The notes under the pieces are model-generated. The model did no database searches, had not been told where the DNA came from, and saw only the letters and a list, made by a program, of their open reading frames with translations. The translations under genes were made by a program, and so were the position numbers. This document shows positions 10,092-19,898 of a stretch of DNA of 64,000 nucleotides, one piece after another (the first letter of the stretch is position 1; every line of letters starts with the position of its first letter). The stretch is from contig NZ_PVTV01000014.1 of NCBI RefSeq assembly GCF_003003055.1, forward strand, positions 1 through 64,000, read 5' to 3'. Origin of the DNA: Jezberella montanilacus (GTDB lineage Bacteria; Pseudomonadota; Gammaproteobacteria; Burkholderiales; Burkholderiaceae_B).

Positions 10092-11189
10092 TTAAATTAA
10101 GTGTCCCGCCTTTACCGCTTTTGTTTGAAGGTAACCGACGTTATGCTCATTCATCGCGAAAACGTGACGCACCCGCTCGGTCACTTCAATCCCATGGTGG
10201 GCCAGCGCGCTCACTTTAATTGGGTTATTGGTCATCAGTTTAACTTGTTTGACGCCCAGCAATTTCAACATTTGTGCTGCCGGTAAATACACTCGTTCGT
10301 CTTCGTCGTAGCCTAGCTGCAAATTCGCATCGATCGTGTCATAACCAGCATCCTGCAATTGGTAGGCTCTCAGCTTATTGACTAAGCCAATCCCTCTACC
10401 CTCTTGCCCTAGATAAAGCATGATCCCGCTTCCCGCCTCTGACATAGCCTCAATTGCACCTCGCAACTGACTGCCACAATCGCACCGCAGCGATCCAAGC
10501 AAATCTCCAGTAAAACACTCTGAGTGCAATCTGACTAATACTGGTTGAGTTAAATCAGGCTCACCGATGAGGATTGCAAAGTGTTCAGATCCACCATCTC
10601 CTGGCCTGAACGCAACCATCCGAGCCTGTTCGGCACCTTCAAGCGGTACCCTTGCCTGACTAACAATCCTTAGCTGCTGCGCACCAAAAGTCTTATAAGA
10701 TTCAATGTCTTTCACATCAACCACCAGCGCACCCGCGGGCTCATGATCAATTGGCATCGTCAACGCAGCCGGCAATAATCTTGCTAGCTTAGTCAGCAGC
10801 AAGCCAGCGCCTTCAATAGAAGCACCTTGAGATACCTTGAGTTGCGTCATGTCGGCAGGCTGTGAGACCGAAGTGGGGTCAGACAGATATTCGACATCGT
10901 CAGCTTGTAACGATCTGCTTCCTCGGATCAGATAGAAATCGTGACCGGCATCAGCTAATCCAAGTGCGCGAGCTCGTTTACCTGTAATCGCGACCGAGAC
11001 ATCCCCCTCGCCGGCTAGGCGAAACTGCTCAAGGCTCTCTGGGCCCACCCCTTCACTGGCAAGCATCAGTATCAGATGATGACCACCTCGAACCACAACT
11101 GCTGCGCCGCGGCGTAAGTCTGCTATTGCTCGGTCAACAGACGTCAATGCGTGATCAATCTCGTTTCTTGTATGCTGAGTAGGCGACAC
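10092..11189 (-). CDS. ribA: GTP cyclohydrolase II-like protein (RibA) with degenerate RibB half
   Basis: The C-terminal 180 residues are a convincing GTP cyclohydrolase II. Numbered from the TTG at 11198, the zinc cysteines are C228, C239 and C241 (HSEC and RCDCG), followed by QEGRGIGL, TIDANLQLGYDEDER and LMTNNPIK. It would open GTP, releasing formate and pyrophosphate, to give the diaminopyrimidinone ribosyl phosphate. The N-terminal half resembles a DHBP synthase (DRAIADLRRGAAVVV) but lacks the acidic DDEDRENEGD metal and substrate motif, so that activity is probably absent. I prefer the GTG at 11189 because an AAGG site lies about 9 bases upstream. It diverges from the RibD-C-like gene with only about 45 bases between. 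No lumazine or riboflavin synthase is nearby, so it is more likely a pathway-specific paralogue than the housekeeping enzyme. Confidence 0.85.
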   Translation of the reverse strand: MSPTQHTRNEIDHALTSVDRAIADLRRGAAVVVRGGHHLILMLASEGVGPESLEQFRLAGEGDVSVAITGKRARALGLADAGHDFYLIRGSRSLQADDVEYLSDPTSVSQPADMTQLKVSQGASIEGAGLLLTKLARLLPAALTMPIDHEPAGALVVDVKDIESYKTFGAQQLRIVSQARVPLEGAEQARMVAFRPGDGGSEHFAILIGEPDLTQPVLVRLHSECFTGDLLGSLRCDCGSQLRGAIEAMSEAGSGIMLYLGQEGRGIGLVNKLRAYQLQDAGYDTIDANLQLGYDEDERVYLPAAQMLKLLGVKQVKLMTNNPIKVSALAHHGIEVTERVRHVFAMNEHNVGYLQTKAVKAGHLI

Positions 11190-11235
11190 GTAACACAACC
11201 TTAGTTTCGGGATTACCCTGTATTATGCCAGTGTG

Positions 11236-11994
11236 ATGAACTTTTTCGCTAAAACCCTACTCGACGCCGAACAATGGCAATCCTTTGTTCACGGGGTCAA
11301 GTGTTCGAAGCTAGACACACAAAATGTCTGGTACCCACTATTCGGCTCTTTCGGCACAGGTGCGCAATCTTTCATGATTGGTCAATTAGGCCAGTCTTTA
11401 GACGGCCGAATTGCTACCCCGACTGGCGACTCTAAATATATTAACGGCGAGGCCGGGCTGACCCATCTACACAGGTTACGTGCCCTGGTCGATGCGGTGA
11501 TTGTGGGTGTCGGGACGGCAGTAGCCGATGATCCTATGCTGACGGTTAGAAAGGTTCCAGGGACACATCCAGCCAGAGTAGTAATCGACCCGACAGGCAA
11601 ACTTTCTCGCGACGCAAAAGTCTGGTGCGCTGATGGGACGAGGCGACTTGTCGTCACCAATGAGGGAGCGAAACCTGACATCCCTGCCGGGGTTGAACAT
11701 GTTGCACTAACCTCAAAACAGGGTCAAATAACACCCGTTGACATCATCTCCGCTTTGGCTAACAGAGGATTGCACCGCATCCTTATCGAGGGGGGCGCTG
11801 ACACCATTGCCCGCTTTATTCATGCTGGCTGCCTGCATCGACTGCACTTAATCGTAGCCCCAGTCATCCTGGGATCGGGCAGAACAGGCTTATGCCTTGC
11901 CGAAATTCAAAAGCTAAGCGAAGCGATCAGACCGGTGGTAAGCGTTCATCCATTGGATGGCGAGGTGCTTTTTGATTGCGATTTTTCAGGCTAA
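11236..11994 (+). CDS. RibD C-terminal-domain reductase (dihydrofolate-reductase fold)
   Basis: About 252 residues with one RibD-C/HTP-reductase domain. Recognisable stretches are GQLGQSLDGRIATPTG near 50-65, YINGEAG, DAVIVGVGTAVADDP near 87-101, ARVVIDP, LIEGGADTIARF near 184-194 and APVILGSGR. RibD-C reduces the ribosyl group of the RibA product to ribityl with NADPH. The N-terminal deaminase domain of full RibD is absent; the first 45 residues are unlike it. The start is ATG 11236 (GTG just before it at 11233), with no clear ribosome site, so a leaderless mRNA is possible. The gene diverges from the RibA-like gene and ends 3 bases from the convergent glycosyltransferase gene. Confidence 0.82.
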   Translation: MNFFAKTLLDAEQWQSFVHGVKCSKLDTQNVWYPLFGSFGTGAQSFMIGQLGQSLDGRIATPTGDSKYINGEAGLTHLHRLRALVDAVIVGVGTAVADDPMLTVRKVPGTHPARVVIDPTGKLSRDAKVWCADGTRRLVVTNEGAKPDIPAGVEHVALTSKQGQITPVDIISALANRGLHRILIEGGADTIARFIHAGCLHRLHLIVAPVILGSGRTGLCLAEIQKLSEAIRPVVSVHPLDGEVLFDCDFSG

Positions 11995-11997
11995 GCG

Positions 11998-13053
11998 TCA
12001 ACGGTCGATGTTAGCGAGAATATCGGCAAACTGAATCCCTGAAGTTTTCCAGGTTGGCAGTAACTGCGCGCTTTGCCAGGCCCCTTGCGCGAATTTTTCT
12101 CGCGCAAGGGGCTCGCGGACCATCAGTGCAATTGCTTGAGCCAACGCATTGACGTCACCTGGGGGGACCAAAACCCCAGCTTGTTCAGGCACCGTATCTG
12201 AGATTGCACCACCGGTAGTACCAATAACCGGCAGGCCTCGCGCCATGGCCTCGGCATAAGCCATGCCATAGCCTTCAAAGCGAGACGCCAGTACGAAAAC
12301 ATCTGACCGATCGTAATAACTAGCAAGCTCGTCTGCAGTCAAAGTCCCCGTCTGGGTGATTCGGTCACCCAGTTGGCAAGCGCTGATTTGTTGTGTCAGC
12401 GCTGCCGCACAGACTGCATCACGTTGATTGTCACCAATGATCGTGAGATGCCAATCCAGATCGGTCAGTTTGGCCAATGCGGACACCAACACGTCAAAGC
12501 CTTTACGAGGGATGAGACTACCAACAGACAATAACTCGACACGTTGTGTACCGCCACCACGCGCCCTGCTCGCCGTCTGAGTACCCGGATAAACGACGCT
12601 TACTCGATCAGGTTGAACACCGAATTCGGGCATCAAGCTGGCGGTTGCCTGACTGGTCACGATGACATGCTTAGCCGAAACGAGCGCCTGTGTCTCGCTT
12701 GCTCGCAAGGTGAATTGAGCTGAGTCTGACAAACCGTTTTCAAGCGCCAGTGGGTGGTGAACCAAGGCAATCAATTGCCGTGTGCGAGAAAGTCCCGAAA
12801 CGATCTCGGGCATGACACCAAAGGCCAGCCCATCAATAACGATCAGTGTGCTTGCGTCGATCGCTTCGAGCCGTAGCTCAGCCTCAGCGAGCGTTGCCTT
12901 ATCTGGCCATGGAAACGCATCACCCAGCAATATGATGTCAACCACCCACCCCAACGCCCGAAGCTCTGCGATGATTCGACGGTCGTAGCCATAACCCCCA
13001 CTTGCAGTCTGCAAGTCGCCTGGGACAGCAAACGCAACGCGTGGCTCACTCAC
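11998..13053 (-). CDS. Family 4 glycosyltransferase (GT-B fold)
   Basis: About 351 residues. The N-terminal half opens with RVAFAVPGDLQTASGGYGYD, a GT-B acceptor domain. The C-terminal half shows SVGSLIPRKGFDVLV and the donor-sugar E-x7-E motif in RFEGYGMAYAEAMARGLP. It should transfer a sugar from a nucleotide-sugar to a small molecule or glycan in the cytoplasm. I place the start at the GTG at 13053, which overlaps the stop of the PTPS-like gene (GTGA), a usual coupling arrangement; a GTG at 13071 would also be in frame. It is the last gene of the dehydrogenase/PTPS/GT set. A strong stem-loop lies within its 3' end (12080-12112). Confidence 0.82.
   Translation of the reverse strand: MSEPRVAFAVPGDLQTASGGYGYDRRIIAELRALGWVVDIILLGDAFPWPDKATLAEAELRLEAIDASTLIVIDGLAFGVMPEIVSGLSRTRQLIALVHHPLALENGLSDSAQFTLRASETQALVSAKHVIVTSQATASLMPEFGVQPDRVSVVYPGTQTASRARGGGTQRVELLSVGSLIPRKGFDVLVSALAKLTDLDWHLTIIGDNQRDAVCAAALTQQISACQLGDRITQTGTLTADELASYYDRSDVFVLASRFEGYGMAYAEAMARGLPVIGTTGGAISDTVPEQAGVLVPPGDVNALAQAIALMVREPLAREKFAQGAWQSAQLLPTWKTSGIQFADILANIDR
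12080..12112. other. Perfect 13-bp stem-loop inside the glycosyltransferase 3' end
   Basis: Arms 12080-12092 (GCCCCTTGCGCGA) and 12100-12112 (TCGCGCAAGGGGC) are exact reverse complements around a 7-base AT-rich loop (ATTTTTC on the plus strand). It lies in the coding frame of the glycosyltransferase (around EPLAREKFAQGAW) and 86-118 bases past the stop codon of the convergent RibD-C-like gene. There is no T-run after it on either strand, so it is not a standard intrinsic terminator. It may stabilise the 3' end of one or both convergent mRNAs. Confidence 0.55.
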
Positions 13054-13448
13054 AAAACAGCTTCGTACCACGCGCGGGCCACGTGAGATTCGGATATCGT
13101 CACACAGATTGCATGCAACTCACTACCGTCCCGCCCTAATTTCCCTGACTTAGCGGCGAGTGAAAGTTCGTCGAAAATATGCTTCGTCAAAAACTCAGTC
13201 GTTGTATTCAGACCTTTAAAAGCAGGCACATCGTCAAGATTCGTGTAGTTGAGCGGTTTAAGCGTCGCTTTCAAAACATCCAGCGCGCAACCAATATCCA
13301 CAACGATCCCATTCGGATCAAGCTCTTTTGATACGAAGGCGGCATCGACGACGAAAGTCGCGCCGTGTAATGCCTGTGCCGGGCCAAAAACTGCCCCACG
13401 AAACGAATGAGCGATCATGATGTGGTCACGGACTTCAACTGTAAACAT
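13050..13448 (-). CDS. 6-pyruvoyl-tetrahydropterin synthase-like protein with altered active site
   Basis: A 132-residue tunnelling-fold protein of the PTPS/QueD family, starting at ATG 13448 (MFTVEVRDH). Compared by eye with E. coli QueD, H14 and H28 fit two zinc ligands, but the third ligand (second H of LHGH) is A30. The catalytic cysteine is A24, and the catalytic Asp-His pair (LDHHYLND) reads LNYTNLDD, giving N67 and Y68. The pterin-anchoring glutamate is kept as E120 in ISESHVARAW. It therefore probably binds a pterin or pyrimidine but should not run the standard PTPS or QueD reaction. It starts 19 bases after the dehydrogenase stop and overlaps the glycosyltransferase start by 4 bases. 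Confidence 0.75.
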   Translation of the reverse strand: MFTVEVRDHIMIAHSFRGAVFGPAQALHGATFVVDAAFVSKELDPNGIVVDIGCALDVLKATLKPLNYTNLDDVPAFKGLNTTTEFLTKHIFDELSLAAKSGKLGRDGSELHAICVTISESHVARAWYEAVL

Positions 13449-13467
13449 TTTGGCTTCCTGAAAAACG

Positions 13468-14433
13468 TCAGTATGAAACAGGCTGGCAAAGCACACCAGC
13501 TTGTGGATCGAAAATTCTGAGTAGATAGCGACAGATATTTTGAAAGGCGATTGGCCGTTCAAGCAAGATATCGAGCGCTGGGTCATCCAACAACTGCATC
13601 GCTGCGTTTAAGCGTCTCGCATAATCCCAGCGCGGCCGATGCGAAGCTGCAACATGCCCAACTTGACTAGCCACCAGCTTCAACTGTTTGCTATGAAAGG
13701 CCCCTCCGAGCGCCACGGGCGTTGTGCCTGCACCAAACCAGCTCAGCTCAAGAATTGTTGCTTCTTCACCCGCCAGATTGATTGAGGTGTTTAGACCCGC
13801 AGCGCTTGCGGAGGCGTGTATGACCAGATCGCAATCTTGGGGAGCCTGTTGAGGCGCGGCAAAAGCCATACCGAGCTTGTTGGCCTCGTATTCGCGCAGA
13901 GGGTTGATGTCGACGAGTGTGACCTCAGCACCGGGCAGCTTGGCACACAAATAGCCAGCCAGTAATCCAACGACACCACCGCCGACAATTGCGATACGGT
14001 CCGCGGGCCCCGGGGATGCGTTCCAGATAGCATTGAGCGCGGTTTCCATATTGGCTGCCAATAAGGCTCTGACTGGCGGGATGTTGCCAACGCCCACCAG
14101 CGCCGTCGCGGGCACTTGCAACACGCTTTGATGCGGATTCAAACTAAAAAAAGTTTTACCAACGAGCTCTGCCGGACCCTCTTCGACGACACCCACATTG
14201 GCATAGCCGTATTTAACCGGAAACGGAAATTCGCCTTCCATGAAAGGCGCGCGCATCCGCTCGTAATCCTCGACGGACACACGACCGGTCGCGACCAATG
14301 ATTCAGTGCCTCGGCTGAACGCGCTATACAGCGTTCTAACCAGACAATACCCGTGCGGAAGGGGTTGCATCTGCTCATGTCGAATTTCGGCTTGATTGGG
14401 CGCCGTGTACCAAAGTGCTTGAACGCTAGTCAT
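13468..14433 (-). CDS. Zinc-less medium-chain dehydrogenase/reductase
   Basis: A 321-residue alcohol-dehydrogenase-like (MDR) protein. The N-terminal GroES-like domain has SAFSRGTES at 37-45, where classical enzymes have the catalytic-zinc cysteine, and KYGYANVGVV at 74-83 in place of the GHE zinc site. The Rossmann loop is VGGGVVGLLAG at 150-160. It probably uses NAD(P)H without zinc on an unknown substrate. It is the first gene of the minus-strand set dehydrogenase/PTPS-like/GT4. It diverges from the OpgH-like gene across a 108-base spacer that must contain promoters for both directions; I could not fix a convincing -35/-10 pair there. Confidence 0.8.
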   Translation of the reverse strand: MTSVQALWYTAPNQAEIRHEQMQPLPHGYCLVRTLYSAFSRGTESLVATGRVSVEDYERMRAPFMEGEFPFPVKYGYANVGVVEEGPAELVGKTFFSLNPHQSVLQVPATALVGVGNIPPVRALLAANMETALNAIWNASPGPADRIAIVGGGVVGLLAGYLCAKLPGAEVTLVDINPLREYEANKLGMAFAAPQQAPQDCDLVIHASASAAGLNTSINLAGEEATILELSWFGAGTTPVALGGAFHSKQLKLVASQVGHVAASHRPRWDYARRLNAAMQLLDDPALDILLERPIAFQNICRYLLRIFDPQAGVLCQPVSY

Positions 14434-14541
14434 ACAAGGTTACGGTCGAATCGCTTCATAAAATCACAGATATTGGATAGCCGCATGACCTATACTGCCA
14501 TCGTGCTATCGCCCCAGTATAAATGACCCCAAGGCAATACC

Positions 14542-16320
14542 TTGCAACTTAGTCGATCCGCAGTCCAGCCATTGCCTCCCGTGCGCAGAAGATTGATATT
14601 CAGTGTTCTGGTCGGGACGACAATGCTGGCGCTTTGGTTGCTCATGTATCGAGCCGTCACGCCGATGGCTCTGACACCAATGGGGCTGATCGTGTTAAGT
14701 CTTTACACTGTCCTGCTCCCTTGGCTCAGTATCGGCACCTGGAACGCCATAATCGGATTCGTCCTCCTGCGGTTCCGTGTCGACCCTCTCGCCAGCTTAT
14801 TGCCCCAAGCAGTGGCTCACGCAGCACACGCTGACCAAGACCAACCCATAACCGCATCCACAGCCCTGTTGGTATGTGTGCGCAATGAGAACCCAACTCA
14901 AGTTATCCGAAATTTATCCCTGACGGTAGACGGGCTCGTGCAGGCTGGTGCGGCAAGTTTCTTCCATTTGTACATCCTGAGCGACACCAATGACCCGCAG
15001 CTCGCCGCCACTGAAGCGCTCAAGTTTGAAGCTTTCAAAGCGACCGCAGCACAAGAAATCGATTTGACCTATCGCCGTCGCGACATCAACGAAGGCTACA
15101 AAGCAGGTAACGTGCACGACTTTTGCGAGCGCTGGGGCGATCAACATGACTTTGCGCTAACCCTTGATGCAGACAGTTTCATGTCCGGTAGCGCCATTTT
15201 GCGACTGGTTAGGATGATGCAAGCGGATCCTCAACTGGGGATATTGCAGGGCTTGGTAGTTGCCATGCCATCACAAAGCGGCTTCACCCGCTTATTTCAG
15301 TTCGGGATGCGCCTGGGAATGAGGTCATGGACGATGGGCAGCGCGTGGTGGCAAGGAGATTGCGGACCTTACTGGGGCCACAATGCCTTGTTCCGGATAA
15401 AGCCTTTCACTGAATTCTGCAAACTGCCATTACTCAAGCCTGACAGGTTCGGGCCCAGACACATTCTGAGTCATGACCAGGTTGAGGCGGTGCTGATGCG
15501 TCGAGCCGGTTATCACGTGCGCGTTATGCCCCTGGAGGACGCCAGTTGGGAGCAAAACCCACCAACCTTGCCAGAGTTCGTTCAGAGAGATTTACGCTGG
15601 TGCGAGGGCAACATGCAATACGGTGAATTAATTCGCCTGCCGAAACTAGCCTTTGTCAGCCGCATCCAATTGGTGCTTGCCATGCTGATGTTTGCAGGCG
15701 CTCCCGCTTGGATTGGTCTTATGCTTTGTGCCGGCGTCAGCGCCACCATGACCAGTCAACTGTCTTCGGCATTTAATATTGATCTCCTCAAGTTGCTGTT
15801 TGTTGCCACCTTGGTCTTGTTTTACTTACCCAAGATTGCCAGTGCGGTCGATGTCATGTGTAGCAAAAAGCAGCGAATGGCATTTGGCGGGCCGGGTAAA
15901 TTTTTACTAGGCGTTTTCATCGAGACACTTTTCTCGTTGATGATCTGCCCCATCATGTGGTTTAACCAAACCGTGTATCTCGGCCGTTTATTTACAGGTC
16001 GTAGCAAAGGCTGGGTGGGGCAAACGCGCGACGATCACTCGGTCGCGTGGCTCTCTGCGGTTCGGCTGTACTGGCTACATACCGTTTTTGGCTGCGCTTG
16101 CCTTATCGCAATTGCTGTCAATCTACCGCATGCTTTTGTGTATTCCCTCTTCTTTTTGCTTGGGCTAGCTGTGCCAATCCCACTTGCTGTGATTCTGTCT
16201 TGGCCCTCGGTAGGCAGATGGATGACGCTAAAAGGGGTTGGTCAGTTACCTGAAGAGACCATGCCACCCAAGGATCTGCTTTTACTTGAACTGCCGGCGC
16301 TGCTGACCAGGCAGGTTTAA
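14542..16320 (+). CDS. Short OpgH/MdoH-like membrane glucosyltransferase
   Basis: A 592-residue GT2 glycosyltransferase resembling the catalytic core of OpgH, which builds the beta-1,2-linked backbone of osmoregulated periplasmic glucans. Two N-terminal membrane segments (about 20-75) precede a cytoplasmic domain with VCVRNENP, LDADSFMSG (D209, D211), GHNALFRI near 279, SHDQVEA at 310-316 and the RDLRWCEGNMQ acceptor motif at 349-359. Several further membrane segments follow. E. coli OpgH is about 850 residues, so this resembles the shorter alphaproteobacterial forms. The start is TTG at 14542 with AAGG 7 bases upstream. No opgG or opgD accompanies it; the next gene, 8 bases on, is an NdvA-like exporter. 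Confidence 0.82.
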   Translation: MQLSRSAVQPLPPVRRRLIFSVLVGTTMLALWLLMYRAVTPMALTPMGLIVLSLYTVLLPWLSIGTWNAIIGFVLLRFRVDPLASLLPQAVAHAAHADQDQPITASTALLVCVRNENPTQVIRNLSLTVDGLVQAGAASFFHLYILSDTNDPQLAATEALKFEAFKATAAQEIDLTYRRRDINEGYKAGNVHDFCERWGDQHDFALTLDADSFMSGSAILRLVRMMQADPQLGILQGLVVAMPSQSGFTRLFQFGMRLGMRSWTMGSAWWQGDCGPYWGHNALFRIKPFTEFCKLPLLKPDRFGPRHILSHDQVEAVLMRRAGYHVRVMPLEDASWEQNPPTLPEFVQRDLRWCEGNMQYGELIRLPKLAFVSRIQLVLAMLMFAGAPAWIGLMLCAGVSATMTSQLSSAFNIDLLKLLFVATLVLFYLPKIASAVDVMCSKKQRMAFGGPGKFLLGVFIETLFSLMICPIMWFNQTVYLGRLFTGRSKGWVGQTRDDHSVAWLSAVRLYWLHTVFGCACLIAIAVNLPHAFVYSLFFLLGLAVPIPLAVILSWPSVGRWMTLKGVGQLPEETMPPKDLLLLELPALLTRQV

Positions 16321-16328
16321 CCCACACC

Positions 16329-18110
16329 ATGAATTTCATCCAGATCTACAAGAGAGTCCTGCAACAACTCGGTGAAGATACTCGACTGGCGTGGTGGTTA
16401 TCGATCGCAAACGTCGCTTTGGTCCTTGCACTTTTTGCAGAGCCGGTTTTGTTCGGACGTATCATCGACTCGCTCTCGCAATTGACCAGTCAGCAACTGG
16501 CGACTGCTTGGGCAACGACTGCCCCCTACCTCACTGCCTGGGTTTGTTTCGGCCTCTTTGAAATCCTGTGCGCAAGCTTTCTTGCGTTGCAAACCGATCG
16601 ACTAGCCCATCGCCGGCGCCATCTTGTTTTGCGACATTTCTTTGAACATGTGCTGCAGCTTCCAGCGTCTCACTACAACCAGATGCATTCTGGCCGACTG
16701 ATGAAGATCATGCTGCAGGGCGTTGACTCGCTGTGGGCCTTATGGCTGGGGTTCTTCAGAGATCATTTCAGCTCGTTCATTGCCCTGATTGTGCTCATCC
16801 CGCTGACCTTCTATATCAACTGGCGGATGGCTTGGTTACTGGTCCTGTTGTGTGCCATATTCGCCTACTTGTCGGTCTATATCGTGCGTAAAACGCAACG
16901 ATTACAACGAGAGGTAGAGCAACATCACTCTGATCTCGCTGAACGGGCTAATGACACCCTGGGTAATATTGCTTTGGTACAGAGCTTTGCGCGAGTCAAA
17001 GACGAGGTCAACGCAATCAAAGGCATCAGTGGTCGGGTGCTGAGTGCGCAGTTTCCGGTGCTGTCCTGGTGGGCGATTGTCAGAGTGCTGACTCGGGTCA
17101 GCACCACACTGACCGTACTCAGCATCATTACGCTTGGCATCTGGTTGTTTGCCCAGGGCTTGACCACCGTTGGTGAAATTGTCACCTTCATCTCAATCGC
17201 CACGCTGGTCATTGGACGACTTGAACAAACCGCACAATTTATCAACCGACTGGCGGGCGATGCACCTCGTTTGCAAGAGTTTTTTGATGTGCTGGATACA
17301 ACACCTCATATTCAAGATTCACCCACCGCCAGAGACGTTAAAAGGTTTCAGGGACGGATTGAATTCGACGCAGTTACGTTTTCTTACGGCAATCAGCGCA
17401 ATGCCTTGGTCAACCTTAGTTTTGTCATCGAACCTGGGCAAACCGTTGCCCTGGTTGGTGAATCAGGCGCAGGCAAGTCAACGGCGTTGGCATTGCTTTA
17501 CCGGACCTTCGACCCAGACTCGGGAACCATAAAAATAGATGGCATCGACATCCGAGAGATTAAGCTGGATTCGTTGCGTGGCAATATTGGAGTGGTTTTT
17601 CAAGAAGCCATGCTGTTCAATCGCAGCATTGCAGAAAATCTGGCCATTGGCGCACCAGACGCAACTAAAGAACAGATGGTGCAAGCGACTCAAGCGGCAG
17701 AGGCCTATGACTTCATTACCCGAAGTGCGAATGGTTTTGACTCAGTGATCGGTGAGCGCGGCAGGTCACTTTCAGGCGGCGAGCGTCAGCGCCTGTCTAT
17801 CGCCCGGGCGATGCTCAAAGACCCACCCATTTTGATCCTGGACGAGGCTACCAGTGCGCTGGATAGTGGCACTGAATCAAAGTTACTGCGCGCCTTGGAC
17901 GTCGTGATCAAGAACCGCACTACCCTTGTCATTGCGCATCGCCTTTCAACGATCCGGGGGGCAGACAAAATCTTGGTCCTCGATCATGGCAAATTAATAG
18001 AAAGCGGCACGTTCGACGAACTGATGGCGCTCAATGGTAACTTCGCTCAACGCGCTAGAGAACAATTTGATTTATCTTCAGAACACACCATAAGGGATGC
18101 AACGCGATGA
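16329..18110 (+). CDS. NdvA/ChvA-like glucan exporter, ABC permease-ATPase fusion
   Basis: A 593-residue half-transporter: six membrane segments in residues 20-300, then an ATPase with Walker A GESGAGKST from 377, signature LSGGERQ at 481-487 and Walker B ILILDEATSALD from 501. The opening ANVALVLALFAEPVLFGRIID closely recalls NdvA/ChvA, the cyclic beta-1,2-glucan exporters of rhizobia. It lies 8 bases after the OpgH-like gene and overlaps the methyltransferase start (ATGA). NdvA normally works with the large cyclic synthase NdvB, which is absent here. It may export the glucan made by the OpgH-like enzyme, or the product of the neighbouring pterin-like gene set. Confidence 0.82.
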   Translation: MNFIQIYKRVLQQLGEDTRLAWWLSIANVALVLALFAEPVLFGRIIDSLSQLTSQQLATAWATTAPYLTAWVCFGLFEILCASFLALQTDRLAHRRRHLVLRHFFEHVLQLPASHYNQMHSGRLMKIMLQGVDSLWALWLGFFRDHFSSFIALIVLIPLTFYINWRMAWLLVLLCAIFAYLSVYIVRKTQRLQREVEQHHSDLAERANDTLGNIALVQSFARVKDEVNAIKGISGRVLSAQFPVLSWWAIVRVLTRVSTTLTVLSIITLGIWLFAQGLTTVGEIVTFISIATLVIGRLEQTAQFINRLAGDAPRLQEFFDVLDTTPHIQDSPTARDVKRFQGRIEFDAVTFSYGNQRNALVNLSFVIEPGQTVALVGESGAGKSTALALLYRTFDPDSGTIKIDGIDIREIKLDSLRGNIGVVFQEAMLFNRSIAENLAIGAPDATKEQMVQATQAAEAYDFITRSANGFDSVIGERGRSLSGGERQRLSIARAMLKDPPILILDEATSALDSGTESKLLRALDVVIKNRTTLVIAHRLSTIRGADKILVLDHGKLIESGTFDELMALNGNFAQRAREQFDLSSEHTIRDATR

Positions 18111-18976
18111 CAGGATTTTCTGCGTACTGGCTATCGCTGCGAGAACCGGTCGATCACCGCTCCAGAGATATCGCGCTACAAAATAAGCTCCGTTCTCATT
18201 TCGAGCATTTGTTTTTTTCAACAGACCGACCGATGCGAATTCTGGATCTGGGTTGCGGTACTGGATCGAATCTCAGAGCAATCGCAGACTCTCTACCGGC
18301 TCATCAGCAATGGACTTTGATCGATTACGATCTCGAATTATTAAAAGCAGCAAAAGCTGAACTGACCAGCTGGTCTGGTGCCGAATCCACCGCTGAGCTA
18401 TCGCCACTGACCATTACTCGTCAGGCCAAACAAATTGAAGTCGCATTTTTACAAGAAGATCTTGCGATCAACATCGAACAGGTACTCGCCAAAGATTGCG
18501 ATCTTGTCACGGCGGCTGCTTTTTTTGATTTGGTTTCAAACAGTTGGTTAACACGTTTTTGCGGAAGTCTGCGTTGCCCCTTCTACACGGTCCTGACCTA
18601 TAACGGAGATGAGCAATGGTCACCCGTTCATGATGCCGACGCAGAGATGCTTCAGGCTTTTCATCGTCATCAACAACACGATAAGGGGTTTGGTGTGGCC
18701 GCCGGTCCCAACGCCACCGAGATACTGATTGAACAGTTGCGCTTAAGAGCGTACGAGACTGAGACAGCCTCAAGCCCTTGGGTTTTAACGGCACCTGAGG
18801 ATCAAATGCTTATTCAAGCGCTTGCACACGGCAGTGCAAAAGCTGTTCAAGAAACTGCGTTGGTCAGTAATGAAACTATTCAATCATGGTTGAACAGACG
18901 CTTAAAGGCCACTCAATGCGTTATCGGTCATTCAGATCTTTGGTCAGCGCCTTTTAAGGAGAAGAATCGTGTTTGA
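18107..18976 (+). CDS. Class I SAM-dependent methyltransferase
   Basis: A 289-residue protein with a clear SAM-binding motif I, ILDLGCGTGSN at 45-55, and the acidic end of strand 2 in WTLIDYD near residue 75. The N-terminal stretch YWLSLREPVDHRSRD is distinctive. It should methylate a small molecule or glycan in the cytoplasm. The ATG overlaps the NdvA stop codon, and its own 3' end overlaps the kinase start by 8 bases, so it is translationally coupled on both sides. From memory, similar methyltransferases occur near RibA-like, RibD-C-like and PTPS-like genes in other proteobacteria; I could not verify this here. The substrate is unknown. Confidence 0.8.
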   Translation: MTGFSAYWLSLREPVDHRSRDIALQNKLRSHFEHLFFSTDRPMRILDLGCGTGSNLRAIADSLPAHQQWTLIDYDLELLKAAKAELTSWSGAESTAELSPLTITRQAKQIEVAFLQEDLAINIEQVLAKDCDLVTAAAFFDLVSNSWLTRFCGSLRCPFYTVLTYNGDEQWSPVHDADAEMLQAFHRHQQHDKGFGVAAGPNATEILIEQLRLRAYETETASSPWVLTAPEDQMLIQALAHGSAKAVQETALVSNETIQSWLNRRLKATQCVIGHSDLWSAPFKEKNRV

Positions 18977-19898
18977 TGTTGTGGCGATCGGTGAGGCAAT
19001 GCTTGAGTTCAACCAGACGACGCCGGGTCAACCAAACTATTTACAAGGCTTTGGCGGGGACACGAGCAACGCAGTGATCGCAGCGGCGCGGGCGGGCGCA
19101 AAGACCGCCTACCTGACTCGTTTGGGTCAAGACACCTTCGGTAAGAGTTTGATGGATCTGTGGCGCAAAGAAGCGGTCAATGTCGACGGCATCGAGATAG
19201 ATAACGAGCGCCCAACCGGTATTTATTTCGTCACACACGGCGCTCGCGGACACGAATTCACCTATCGCCGCGCCGGCTCAGCTGCTAGTAATTTGTCTCA
19301 GGACTGGCTGGAGGTTTTTGCGCAAAAACCAATAGAGTCTAGCAAATGGTTACATGTTTCAGGGATATCGCTGGCTATCTCGGTCAGCGCAGCAGACACC
19401 GTGCTTCGAGCCATGCGCTTAGCGCGTGCCGCGCAGGTCAAAGTGTCGTTTGATTCTAATCTGCGACTCAAGCTCTGGTCGCTTGATCAGGCCAAGCACA
19501 CGATCAGCCAGGCGATCGGACTTTGCGATCTTTTTTTACCCAGCATGGACGATCTCACGACGCTGACAGGTTTGTCCGATGCGGATCAAATACTTGATTG
19601 GTGCCATGCGCAAGGCGCTGTCACCGTCGTCTTGAAGCAAGGTGACCAAGGCTGTATTGTCAGCACGTCTGACAACCGTCAGCACATCGCTGGTCGACGC
19701 GTGACGGCTGTCGACGCGACGGGCGCTGGTGACTGTTTTTGTGGCAACTTGTTAGCCCGACTGGCTTTGGGCGACAGCTTGGCCGATGCCGCTGACTATG
19801 CCAATACCGCAGCCTCGCTTGCTGTGCAAGGTTGGGGGGCTGTCGCTGCCTTACCGGATGCCCGAGCGGTCCAAGCCTGCCGCAGCGCGAGCAAGTAG
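18969..19898 (+). CDS. kdgK: PfkB-family sugar kinase, probable 2-keto-3-deoxygluconate kinase
   Basis: A 309-residue ribokinase-fold kinase. The N-terminal sugar-binding region is VVAIGEAMLEF followed by GFGGDTSNAVIAAARAG, and the anion hole with catalytic base is DATGAGDCF near residue 250. The GEAMLEF and FGGDTSN patterns favour KDG kinase, which makes KDPG from 2-keto-3-deoxygluconate. The start is GTG at 18969, 8 bases inside the methyltransferase gene. Support for KDG as substrate comes from the KDPG aldolase gene directly opposite: the two 3' ends overlap by 48 bases. Together they would feed KDG into pyruvate and glyceraldehyde 3-phosphate. Confidence 0.83.
   Translation: MFDVVAIGEAMLEFNQTTPGQPNYLQGFGGDTSNAVIAAARAGAKTAYLTRLGQDTFGKSLMDLWRKEAVNVDGIEIDNERPTGIYFVTHGARGHEFTYRRAGSAASNLSQDWLEVFAQKPIESSKWLHVSGISLAISVSAADTVLRAMRLARAAQVKVSFDSNLRLKLWSLDQAKHTISQAIGLCDLFLPSMDDLTTLTGLSDADQILDWCHAQGAVTVVLKQGDQGCIVSTSDNRQHIAGRRVTAVDATGAGDCFCGNLLARLALGDSLADAADYANTAASLAVQGWGAVAALPDARAVQACRSASK

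Follow-up and report, generated by a model that had tools for sequence, protein, structure and literature searches.

What brings a RibA-like GTP cyclohydrolase II and a RibD-C-type reductase together with a PTPS-fold protein, an oxidoreductase of the medium-chain dehydrogenase/reductase (MDR) fold and a family 4 glycosyltransferase (GT4) in Jezberella montanilacus? The five genes lie in the first 64,000 nucleotides of contig NZ_PVTV01000014.1 (the window), part of a host assembly of 3.16 Mb in 19 contigs. A preliminary description of the locus, bounded at 10092 and 14433, had taken them for a candidate undescribed pathway, probably leading to a reduced, glycosylated diaminopyrimidine or pteridine. 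All five were found as open frames with the domains named there (GTP_cyclohydro2, 5e-59; RibD_C, 8e-40; PTPS, 3e-19), but the unit extends beyond 14433: it comprises eight genes, from 10092 to 18976, and includes an MdoH-like GT2 glycosyltransferase and an ATP-binding cassette (ABC) exporter, both missed in that description, and a methyltransferase (Table 1). The core genes almost certainly work together, with lower confidence for RibA and for the lineage-specific exporter, and they represent a widely conserved pathway branching from GTP ring opening that is undescribed in the literature searched. As to its product, we give roughly even chances to a non-deaminated, reduced 2-amino-pyrimidinone or pteridine that would be glycosylated, methylated and exported.

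The strongest evidence for a common function came from gene distribution. In a sample of 398 genomes drawn evenly from the phylum, the MDR (E<=1e-40, up to 5 candidates per genome) and the PTPS protein, which belongs to subfamily PTPS-IV (E<=1e-20, up to 10 candidates), were found in the identical 27 genomes, and in all 27 the two genes were adjacent on one strand. There are C(398,27) = 5.9e41 ways of choosing 27 genomes out of 398; the coincidence exceeds chance, bearing in mind that the 27 genomes (20 genera, 12 family codes) are related to one another.

Closer to the host, 81 genomes were searched for strong MDR matches (E<1e-40). These were present in 31 of the 32 same-genus genomes, host included (partial only in G020, none in G023), in none of the 17 other genomes of the family, and in one of the 32 others of the order (G059); the remaining genomes gave a few weak matches near 1e-4. 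Nineteen of the 30 other same-genus loci were fetched, plus that of G059. All eight genes were found together in 18 of the 19, the contig of the other (L058) ending after MdoH, and the G059 stretch carried six of the eight, without RibA and the ABC exporter.

Neighbouring genes were then counted within 9 kb of the MDR gene, at 45 bits or more, in the 26 phylum-sample loci other than that of the window, of which at least L189 ends at a contig edge. PTPS was present in all 26, GT4 in 25, the methyltransferase in 24 and RibD-C in 22. The 24 loci with the methyltransferase bear out the earlier suggestion that the product of 18107-18976 belongs to the group. Less constant were a CDP-alcohol phosphotransferase (12), RibA (11), a flippase-like protein (11) and MdoH (10), followed by an FkbM methyltransferase (8), cytochrome b561 (7) and a creatininase family protein (6); these last three labels were assigned by eye, consistently with the annotation of matching plasmid genes. 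Sulfatase-like (2), ABC (2, both weak) and inositol-phosphatase-like (1) genes were rare.

Related stretches numbered at least 581 in a scan of named genomes. The 80 best of them were retained, a set that is biased because it was chosen by similarity, and that includes the window's genus. By tblastn (E<=1e-4), the MDR was found in 80 of these loci, PTPS in 74, GT4 in 72, the methyltransferase in 68, MdoH in 64, RibD-C in 62, RibA in 46 and the ABC exporter in 25 (six of them weak, 44-71 bits). Restricting the count to loci that span 20 kb or more (42 in all) and to matches of 60 bits or more gave 42 each for MDR, PTPS and GT4, 41 for the methyltransferase, 36 for RibD-C, 33 for MdoH, 30 for RibA and 9 for ABC. 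In agreement with the preliminary description, the five families recur jointly in alpha-, beta- and gammaproteobacteria, with hosts such as Bradyrhizobium, Polynucleobacter, Reyranella, Rhodobacter, Halomonas, Salinisphaera and Thiorhodococcus, among others. In the 80 named loci plus that of G059, cytochrome b561 occurred in 25 and an FkbM-type methyltransferase in 28, and 8 loci (among them L060, L080 and L101) had near the unit a gene for a large protein of membrane type, some 770-790 aa long (cluster c12).

An MDR tree of 93 rows, built by a quick method and with SH-aLRT support only, placed the window in a set of 18 rows with 91% support, 16 of them betaproteobacterial and one titled as a gammaproteobacterium. 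Class labels changed 6 times on the tree against a minimum of 2, so that some transfer, mislabelling or paralogy is possible. L076, a contig of a metagenome-assembled genome titled Bordetella parapertussis, grouped with other Alcaligenaceae, and its title is probably wrong. Among related viral contigs, 8 stretches fitted a pattern and none encoded a relative.

Residue patterns in the reductase point to the kind of compound on which the pathway would act. The protein keeps the residues that line the phosphoribosyl site of B. subtilis RibG (Ser67 in 53 of 60 rows, Arg83 and Asp99 each in 59 of 60, Arg106 in 60 of 60, Glu186 in 61 of 61). It is not of the deaminase-coupled RibD type, having neither the Lys of B. 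subtilis RibG position 151 nor an N-terminal deaminase; PF01872 was the only Pfam family detected. Of the 59 covering rows, 58 have Gln51 and one has His; the residue aligned to Gln51 is Lys in the host's own RibD and in 2b3z (B. subtilis) and 2hxv (T. maritima), and Asn in the solved reductases 6p8c, 2azn and 5xv0. According to the available portion of PMC3631187, this site is Thr in fungi and Asn in archaea, the T35K change in yeast RIB7 indicates that Lys favours the deaminated substrate, and Gln lies outside the residues tested. With Gln in place of Lys the enzyme should act on the 2-amino compound, and its substrate is probably the non-deaminated 2,5-diamino form. Such a substrate would agree with the lack of a deaminase and with the recognition of 2-amino-4-oxo rings by the PTPS fold, and in this respect the residue pattern supports the reduced, non-deaminated diaminopyrimidine put forward in the preliminary description.

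For its part, the PTPS protein, 50-88% identical to 14 aligned relatives, has lost the residues of ordinary PTPS and QueD chemistry, a loss that had escaped the preliminary description. Counting the residue that precedes the start Met as 1, the FGPAQ signature was present from Phe22 to Ala25 in 75 of 75 rows, with Gln26 in 73 of 75. Relative to human PTPS, the catalytic Cys is replaced by Ala25 and the second His of HGH, a zinc ligand, by Ala31 (both in 75 of 75 rows), and the Asp-His pair by Asn (61 of 73) and Tyr (62 of 73). Glu121, aligned with the pterin-anchoring Glu, and Thr84-Thr85-Glu86 were retained in all 73 covering rows. By these residues the protein lacks the chemistry of PTPS-I, II and III and keeps the pterin anchor. 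The available parts of PMC5445326 and PMC5041015 give the motifs of those three types as CxxxHGH, CxxxxxHGH or ExxHGH, and the former names FGPAQ as the signature of PTPS-IV, a subfamily of COG0720. In 14 of the 20 plasmid records that matched, the gene is annotated as 6-carboxytetrahydropterin synthase. The closest solved structure by sequence was 3d7j, S. coelicolor SCO6650 (1.6e-55), which reportedly lacks zinc and the catalytic triad and may bind a pterin-like ligand; SCO6655, presumably a GTP cyclohydrolase II homolog, has a nearby locus number, and we know of no function assigned to SCO6650. A separate 369-aa frame of the host with three PTPS-domain matches (G000:C9:53864-54973; L209:4865-5974) lies between QueC-like and QueE-like genes, as judged by eye, and is a multi-domain QueD for queuosine, distinct from the cluster PTPS.

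Coenzyme F420 likewise starts from a ribitylaminopyrimidine, and PTPS-IV and its neighbours might on that ground serve its synthesis. PTPS-IV was indeed assigned to F420 in 2016, as an unpublished statement that comes without data in the available text of PMC5041015. Against this, CofH had no match in the host and none over the cut-off in the 27 cluster genomes, and the search works, since the model exceeded its cut-off in 3 of 14 control genomes. Matches below the cut-off occurred in 11 of the 27, most of them weak (about 19-36 bits), the exception being G277, where two partial matches reach 208 and 106 bits. A role in F420 synthesis is thus very improbable.

RibA has the residues of a working GTP cyclohydrolase II. 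The zinc ligands Cys228, Cys239 and Cys241 and the catalytic residues Tyr279 and Arg302, mapped to Tyr105 and Arg128 of the E. coli enzyme, were conserved in 46 of the 46 covering rows of an alignment of 47. The protein exceeded the cut-offs of NF001591 and TIGR00505 and resembled NF006456 over its full length at 315.7 bits, below the cut-off of 464; its N-terminal region of about 170 residues was covered by no Pfam family. The locus is no riboflavin operon, having no ribD deaminase, ribH or ribE; these functions, for which the preliminary description had proposed a check, are encoded elsewhere in the genome, with RibH on contig C3, RibD and RibE on C6, and a DHBP synthase/RibBX-like protein. 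A second ribA, which that description would have counted as support, was not found with zinc cysteines: the host has only two PF00925 proteins, the cluster RibA and C3:70626, and the cyclohydrolase part of the latter lacks the zinc cysteines, even though NF010626 (bifunctional DHBP synthase/GTP cyclohydrolase II) matches it over the cut-off. The cluster RibA is therefore the only one with these cysteines, and it may not be dedicated to the cluster. However, 13 of 13 non-genus genomes of the same family or order with a single PF00925 match (115-152 bits; L241-L253) carry only the Cys-less RibBX type, so the cysteines may not decide whether RibA is dedicated. G063 and G066 gave no PF00925 match.

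That RibA is the host's only PF00925 protein with zinc cysteines is also the one point in favour of a chance or housekeeping riboflavin grouping. The preliminary description had named as its refutation that this be the only ribA and RibD reductase of the genome and that the genes not co-occur elsewhere; by the cysteine test the first part holds for RibA, whereas the host has another RibD reductase and the genes do co-occur. The identical 27-genome distribution over 20 genera, with recurrent neighbours, refutes such a grouping, and the full RibD, RibE, RibH and DHBP synthase elsewhere in the genome also speak against it, leaving it a practically negligible probability.

Homology says little about the steps that follow. 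The AlphaFold model of the MDR (pLDDT 83) matched MDR enzymes in all of the 50 best solved folds listed (13-18% identity), several of them polyol dehydrogenases, and that of the methyltransferase (pLDDT 94.5) matched methyltransferase folds. Both sets of matches are generic, at 10-18% identity among the 50 best listed for each, and we therefore assign no substrate to either enzyme. GT4 has two conserved Glu residues 8 positions apart, Glu266 (73 of 73 rows) and Glu274 (69 of 73).

The membrane proteins varied most. MdoH was present in all 19 same-genus loci and the ABC exporter in 18, the 19th being cut by the contig end. In the phylum sample, MdoH and the CDP-alcohol phosphotransferase occurred together within 9 kb in two loci only, L181 and L187; two others that carry the CDP-alcohol enzyme, L198 and L201, showed an MdoH-like segment about 9.4 kb from the MDR gene, at the very edge of the stretch. 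This otherwise mutual exclusion suggests that the two are alternative membrane steps. It also bears on whether the locus could be one for a periplasmic or cyclic glucan (MdoH with NdvA/ChvA) beside unrelated redox and riboflavin genes, as the scores of NF003958 and NF010178, both over their cut-offs, might indicate. The CDP-alcohol enzyme tends to replace MdoH (12 versus 10 of the 26 loci), and MdoH and the weak ABC matches (10 and 2 loci) fall far short of the MDR and PTPS genes (26 each). MdoG was not found, the host genome giving no PF04349 match with a model that matched 1 of 14 controls (E. coli). A glucan locus is accordingly improbable.

Related sets were also found beyond the phylum, on plasmids. 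The 14 plasmid loci were not used as statistics, their counts containing queries drawn from the same loci. A Streptomyces fungicidicus plasmid carries the MDR-PTPS-GT4-methyltransferase set with a creatininase, RibA and a CDP-alcohol enzyme in place of MdoH, and a Microbacterium plasmid has the set together with RibD-C and a CDP-alcohol enzyme. In L176 and L177, also from Streptomyces plasmids, a PTPS-IV-like gene stands with no other core gene nearby, so that the pairing of MDR and PTPS-IV is not absolute outside the phylum; one of these two genes reads FGSAQ, not FGPAQ. In three of five haloarchaeal plasmid loci, an MDR, a PTPS or PTPS-like stretch, GT4 and the methyltransferase follow in order. 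The Haloarcula GH36 plasmid has a CDP-alcohol enzyme, GTP cyclohydrolase IIa, MDR, PTPS and methyltransferase, and a Natrarchaeobaculum plasmid has GTP cyclohydrolase IIa and MDR. GTP cyclohydrolase IIa, a non-homologous GTP-opening enzyme, immediately precedes the MDR relative in two of the five (L168 and L178). The PTPS of L178 is of another subfamily, with HSH instead of HGA.

From the conservation, linkage and residue patterns observed we infer substrates, an order of steps and a glycosylated, methylated product, exported or membrane bound. RibA, or a housekeeping ring-opening enzyme, would open GTP to 2,5-diamino-6-ribosylamino-4(3H)-pyrimidinone 5'-phosphate, which the stand-alone RibD-C would reduce without deamination to the 2,5-diamino-6-ribitylamino form. 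This 2-amino-pyrimidinone (pteridine-like) intermediate would next be modified by the MDR and PTPS-IV as a pair, at its side chain or at a newly formed ring, and PTPS-IV would rely on its pterin-anchoring pocket instead of the Cys/zinc chemistry that PTPS and QueD use. GT4 would add a sugar and the S-adenosylmethionine (SAM)-dependent enzyme a methyl group, and the final membrane step would fall here to the MdoH-like GT2 and the ABC exporter, and elsewhere to the CDP-alcohol phosphotransferase and the flippase-like protein.

Several observations weigh against this proposal. The usual ligands of PTPS proteins are pterins derived from FolE; the steps after the reductase are unassigned by homology; the residue in the reductase is Gln, as opposed to the Asn or Thr of known 2-amino-specific enzymes; and the ABC exporter is lineage specific. 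RibA was near the core in only 11 of the 26 phylum-sample loci, and G023, the same-genus genome without an MDR match, keeps a RibA ortholog (L240:10005-11084) and none of the other seven genes in 20 kb, being either a natural loss of the cluster or the state before its gain. In G127, the cluster RibD-C (G127:C6:281526-282041) is the sole PF01872 match of the genome and, to judge from that, may serve riboflavin synthesis. The haloarchaeal MDRs are only 26-33% identical, and the haloarchaeal proteins were rejected as PTPS-IV, three of three checked lacking FGPAQ (the Haloarcula marismortui sequence left out); judged by sequence, the haloarchaeal set is a distant analogue and not the same set. 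As RibA is the only Cys-bearing PF00925 protein of the host and G023 keeps it alone, it may be shared between the cluster route and riboflavin synthesis, and G127 is a further sign that the cluster is not sharply separated from riboflavin synthesis in every genome.

Part of this evidence would suit an arrangement in which the MDR, PTPS-IV, GT4 and methyltransferase work on a pterin of the FolE pathway, with RibD-C as a pterin reductase and RibA as a neighbouring riboflavin gene. PTPS-fold proteins bind pterins, and PTPS-IV keeps the anchoring Glu and the TTE triplet; RibD-C enzymes share the dihydrofolate reductase fold; and RibA was not seen near the core in 15 of the 26 loci and stands alone in G023. 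On the other hand, the reductase retains the phosphoribosyl-site residues of B. subtilis RibG, RibA is linked to the core in all 19 same-genus loci and in 30 of the 42 long ones from named genomes, and GTP cyclohydrolase IIa takes the place of RibA in two of the five haloarchaeal loci. We hold a FolE-derived pterin to be possible, although not the likelier origin.

Returning to a route from RibA and RibD-C, the product might be a redox cofactor of a new kind, located in the periplasm or anchored in the membrane: a reduced, glycosylated and methylated 2-amino-pteridine carried on a lipid or a glucan and served by cytochrome b561. The lipid carrier would be made through the CDP-alcohol enzyme and flippase, and the glucan carrier through MdoH and the exporter. 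We regard this extension as doubtful; if true, versions of the cofactor would exist in proteobacteria, actinobacteria and haloarchaea, the haloarchaeal ones with a substitute GTP-opening enzyme and a different PTPS.

The comparison with known systems showed partial likenesses. Riboflavin biosynthesis shares the first two enzyme families and the RibA active-site residues, but the cluster locus lacks deaminase, lumazine synthase and riboflavin synthase, and its reductase has Gln, not Lys. Toxoflavin-type clusters contain RibA-like and RibD-like proteins and a methyltransferase, and thus also reuse RibA and RibD for a secondary product; to our knowledge they have no PTPS, MDR, GT4 or MdoH. The pterin glycosides of cyanobacteria and Chlorobium derive from GTP cyclohydrolase I and the zinc enzyme PTPS-II. 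They too involve a glycosyltransferase acting on a pterin, according to the available part of PMC5683033, but the PTPS-IV of the cluster lacks PTPS-II chemistry, and RibA and RibD-C are present.

Part of the neighbourhood has been in print since 2017: the available text of PMC5445326 lists PF00925, labelled GTP cyclohydrolase I/FolE2, and PF01872 as genome neighbours of PTPS-IV, and gives no pathway. No word beginning with 'glycosyltransferase' occurs in its main text, and the MDR, methyltransferase, MdoH, exporter and CDP-alcohol enzyme, present in the window or its relatives, are unnamed in the part available. RibA, PTPS and GTP cyclohydrolase II were absent from the main text of PMC13259868 in a term search, and no pterin efflux system had been identified according to the available part of that paper. 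No title or abstract with the full gene set or a product name was found in the literature searched, which most subscription papers lie outside. By tying PTPS-IV to fixed partners and to a reductase predicted to keep the 2-amino group, the cluster makes a testable pathway out of an orphan family that had been misannotated, one that is widespread, from freshwater betaproteobacteria to Halomonas and Bradyrhizobium, with Streptomyces among the plasmid hosts.

Table 1. Genes of the eight-gene unit in the window
Gene product	Position	Strand	Supporting match and remarks
RibA-like GTP cyclohydrolase II, 368 aa	10092..11198	-	PF00925, 5e-59 over residues 181-343
RibD-C type reductase without deaminase domain	11233..11994	+	PF01872, 7.5e-40; start GTG 11233 or ATG 11236
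GT4 glycosyltransferase	11998..13053	-	Glyco_trans_1_4, 4e-31; likely GTG start 13053, open reading frame listed from 13071
PTPS-IV (FGPAQ) protein, 132 aa	13050..13448	-	PF01242, 2.7e-19; start MFTVEVRDH, shorter than listed open reading frame
MDR-fold oxidoreductase, 321 aa	13468..14433	-	Weak ADH_zinc_N, 3e-4, under Pfam cut-off; AlphaFold MDR fold
MdoH-like membrane GT2 glycosyltransferase, 592 aa	14542..16320	+	NF003958, 488 bits (cut-off 419)
ChvA/NdvA-like ABC exporter, 593 aa	16329..18110	+	NF010178, 835 bits (cut-off 733)
Class I SAM-dependent methyltransferase, 289 aa	18107..18976	+	Methyltransf_25, 1e-7

The MDR, PTPS and GT4 genes form a tight run, and the translational link previously noted among them was confirmed: 19 bases separate the MDR stop from the PTPS start, and the PTPS stop and the GT4 start overlap in the four bases GTGA, given the GTG start of GT4. 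RibA lies on the same strand, past the oppositely oriented RibD-C gene, and the two are divergent as described before, the spacer, reckoned from the listed starts, being 34 or 37 bases long and not 45. The GT2, exporter and methyltransferase genes run divergently from MDR, the last two overlapping by 4 bases. Of seven other MdoH models, NF003962 alone was exceeded by the GT2 protein.

The G+C content was even across 1-40 kb (0.49-0.55 in 2-kb steps), with no island and thus, by this measure of composition, no sign of recent import. A KDG-kinase-like PfkB gene at 18969-19898 was rejected as a cluster member, because tblastn at E<=1e-5 matched it in none of the 20 fetched loci, where a KDPG-aldolase-like gene was likewise unmatched. 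The PfkB gene overlaps the end of the methyltransferase gene by 8 bases and is faced by the aldolase-like gene.

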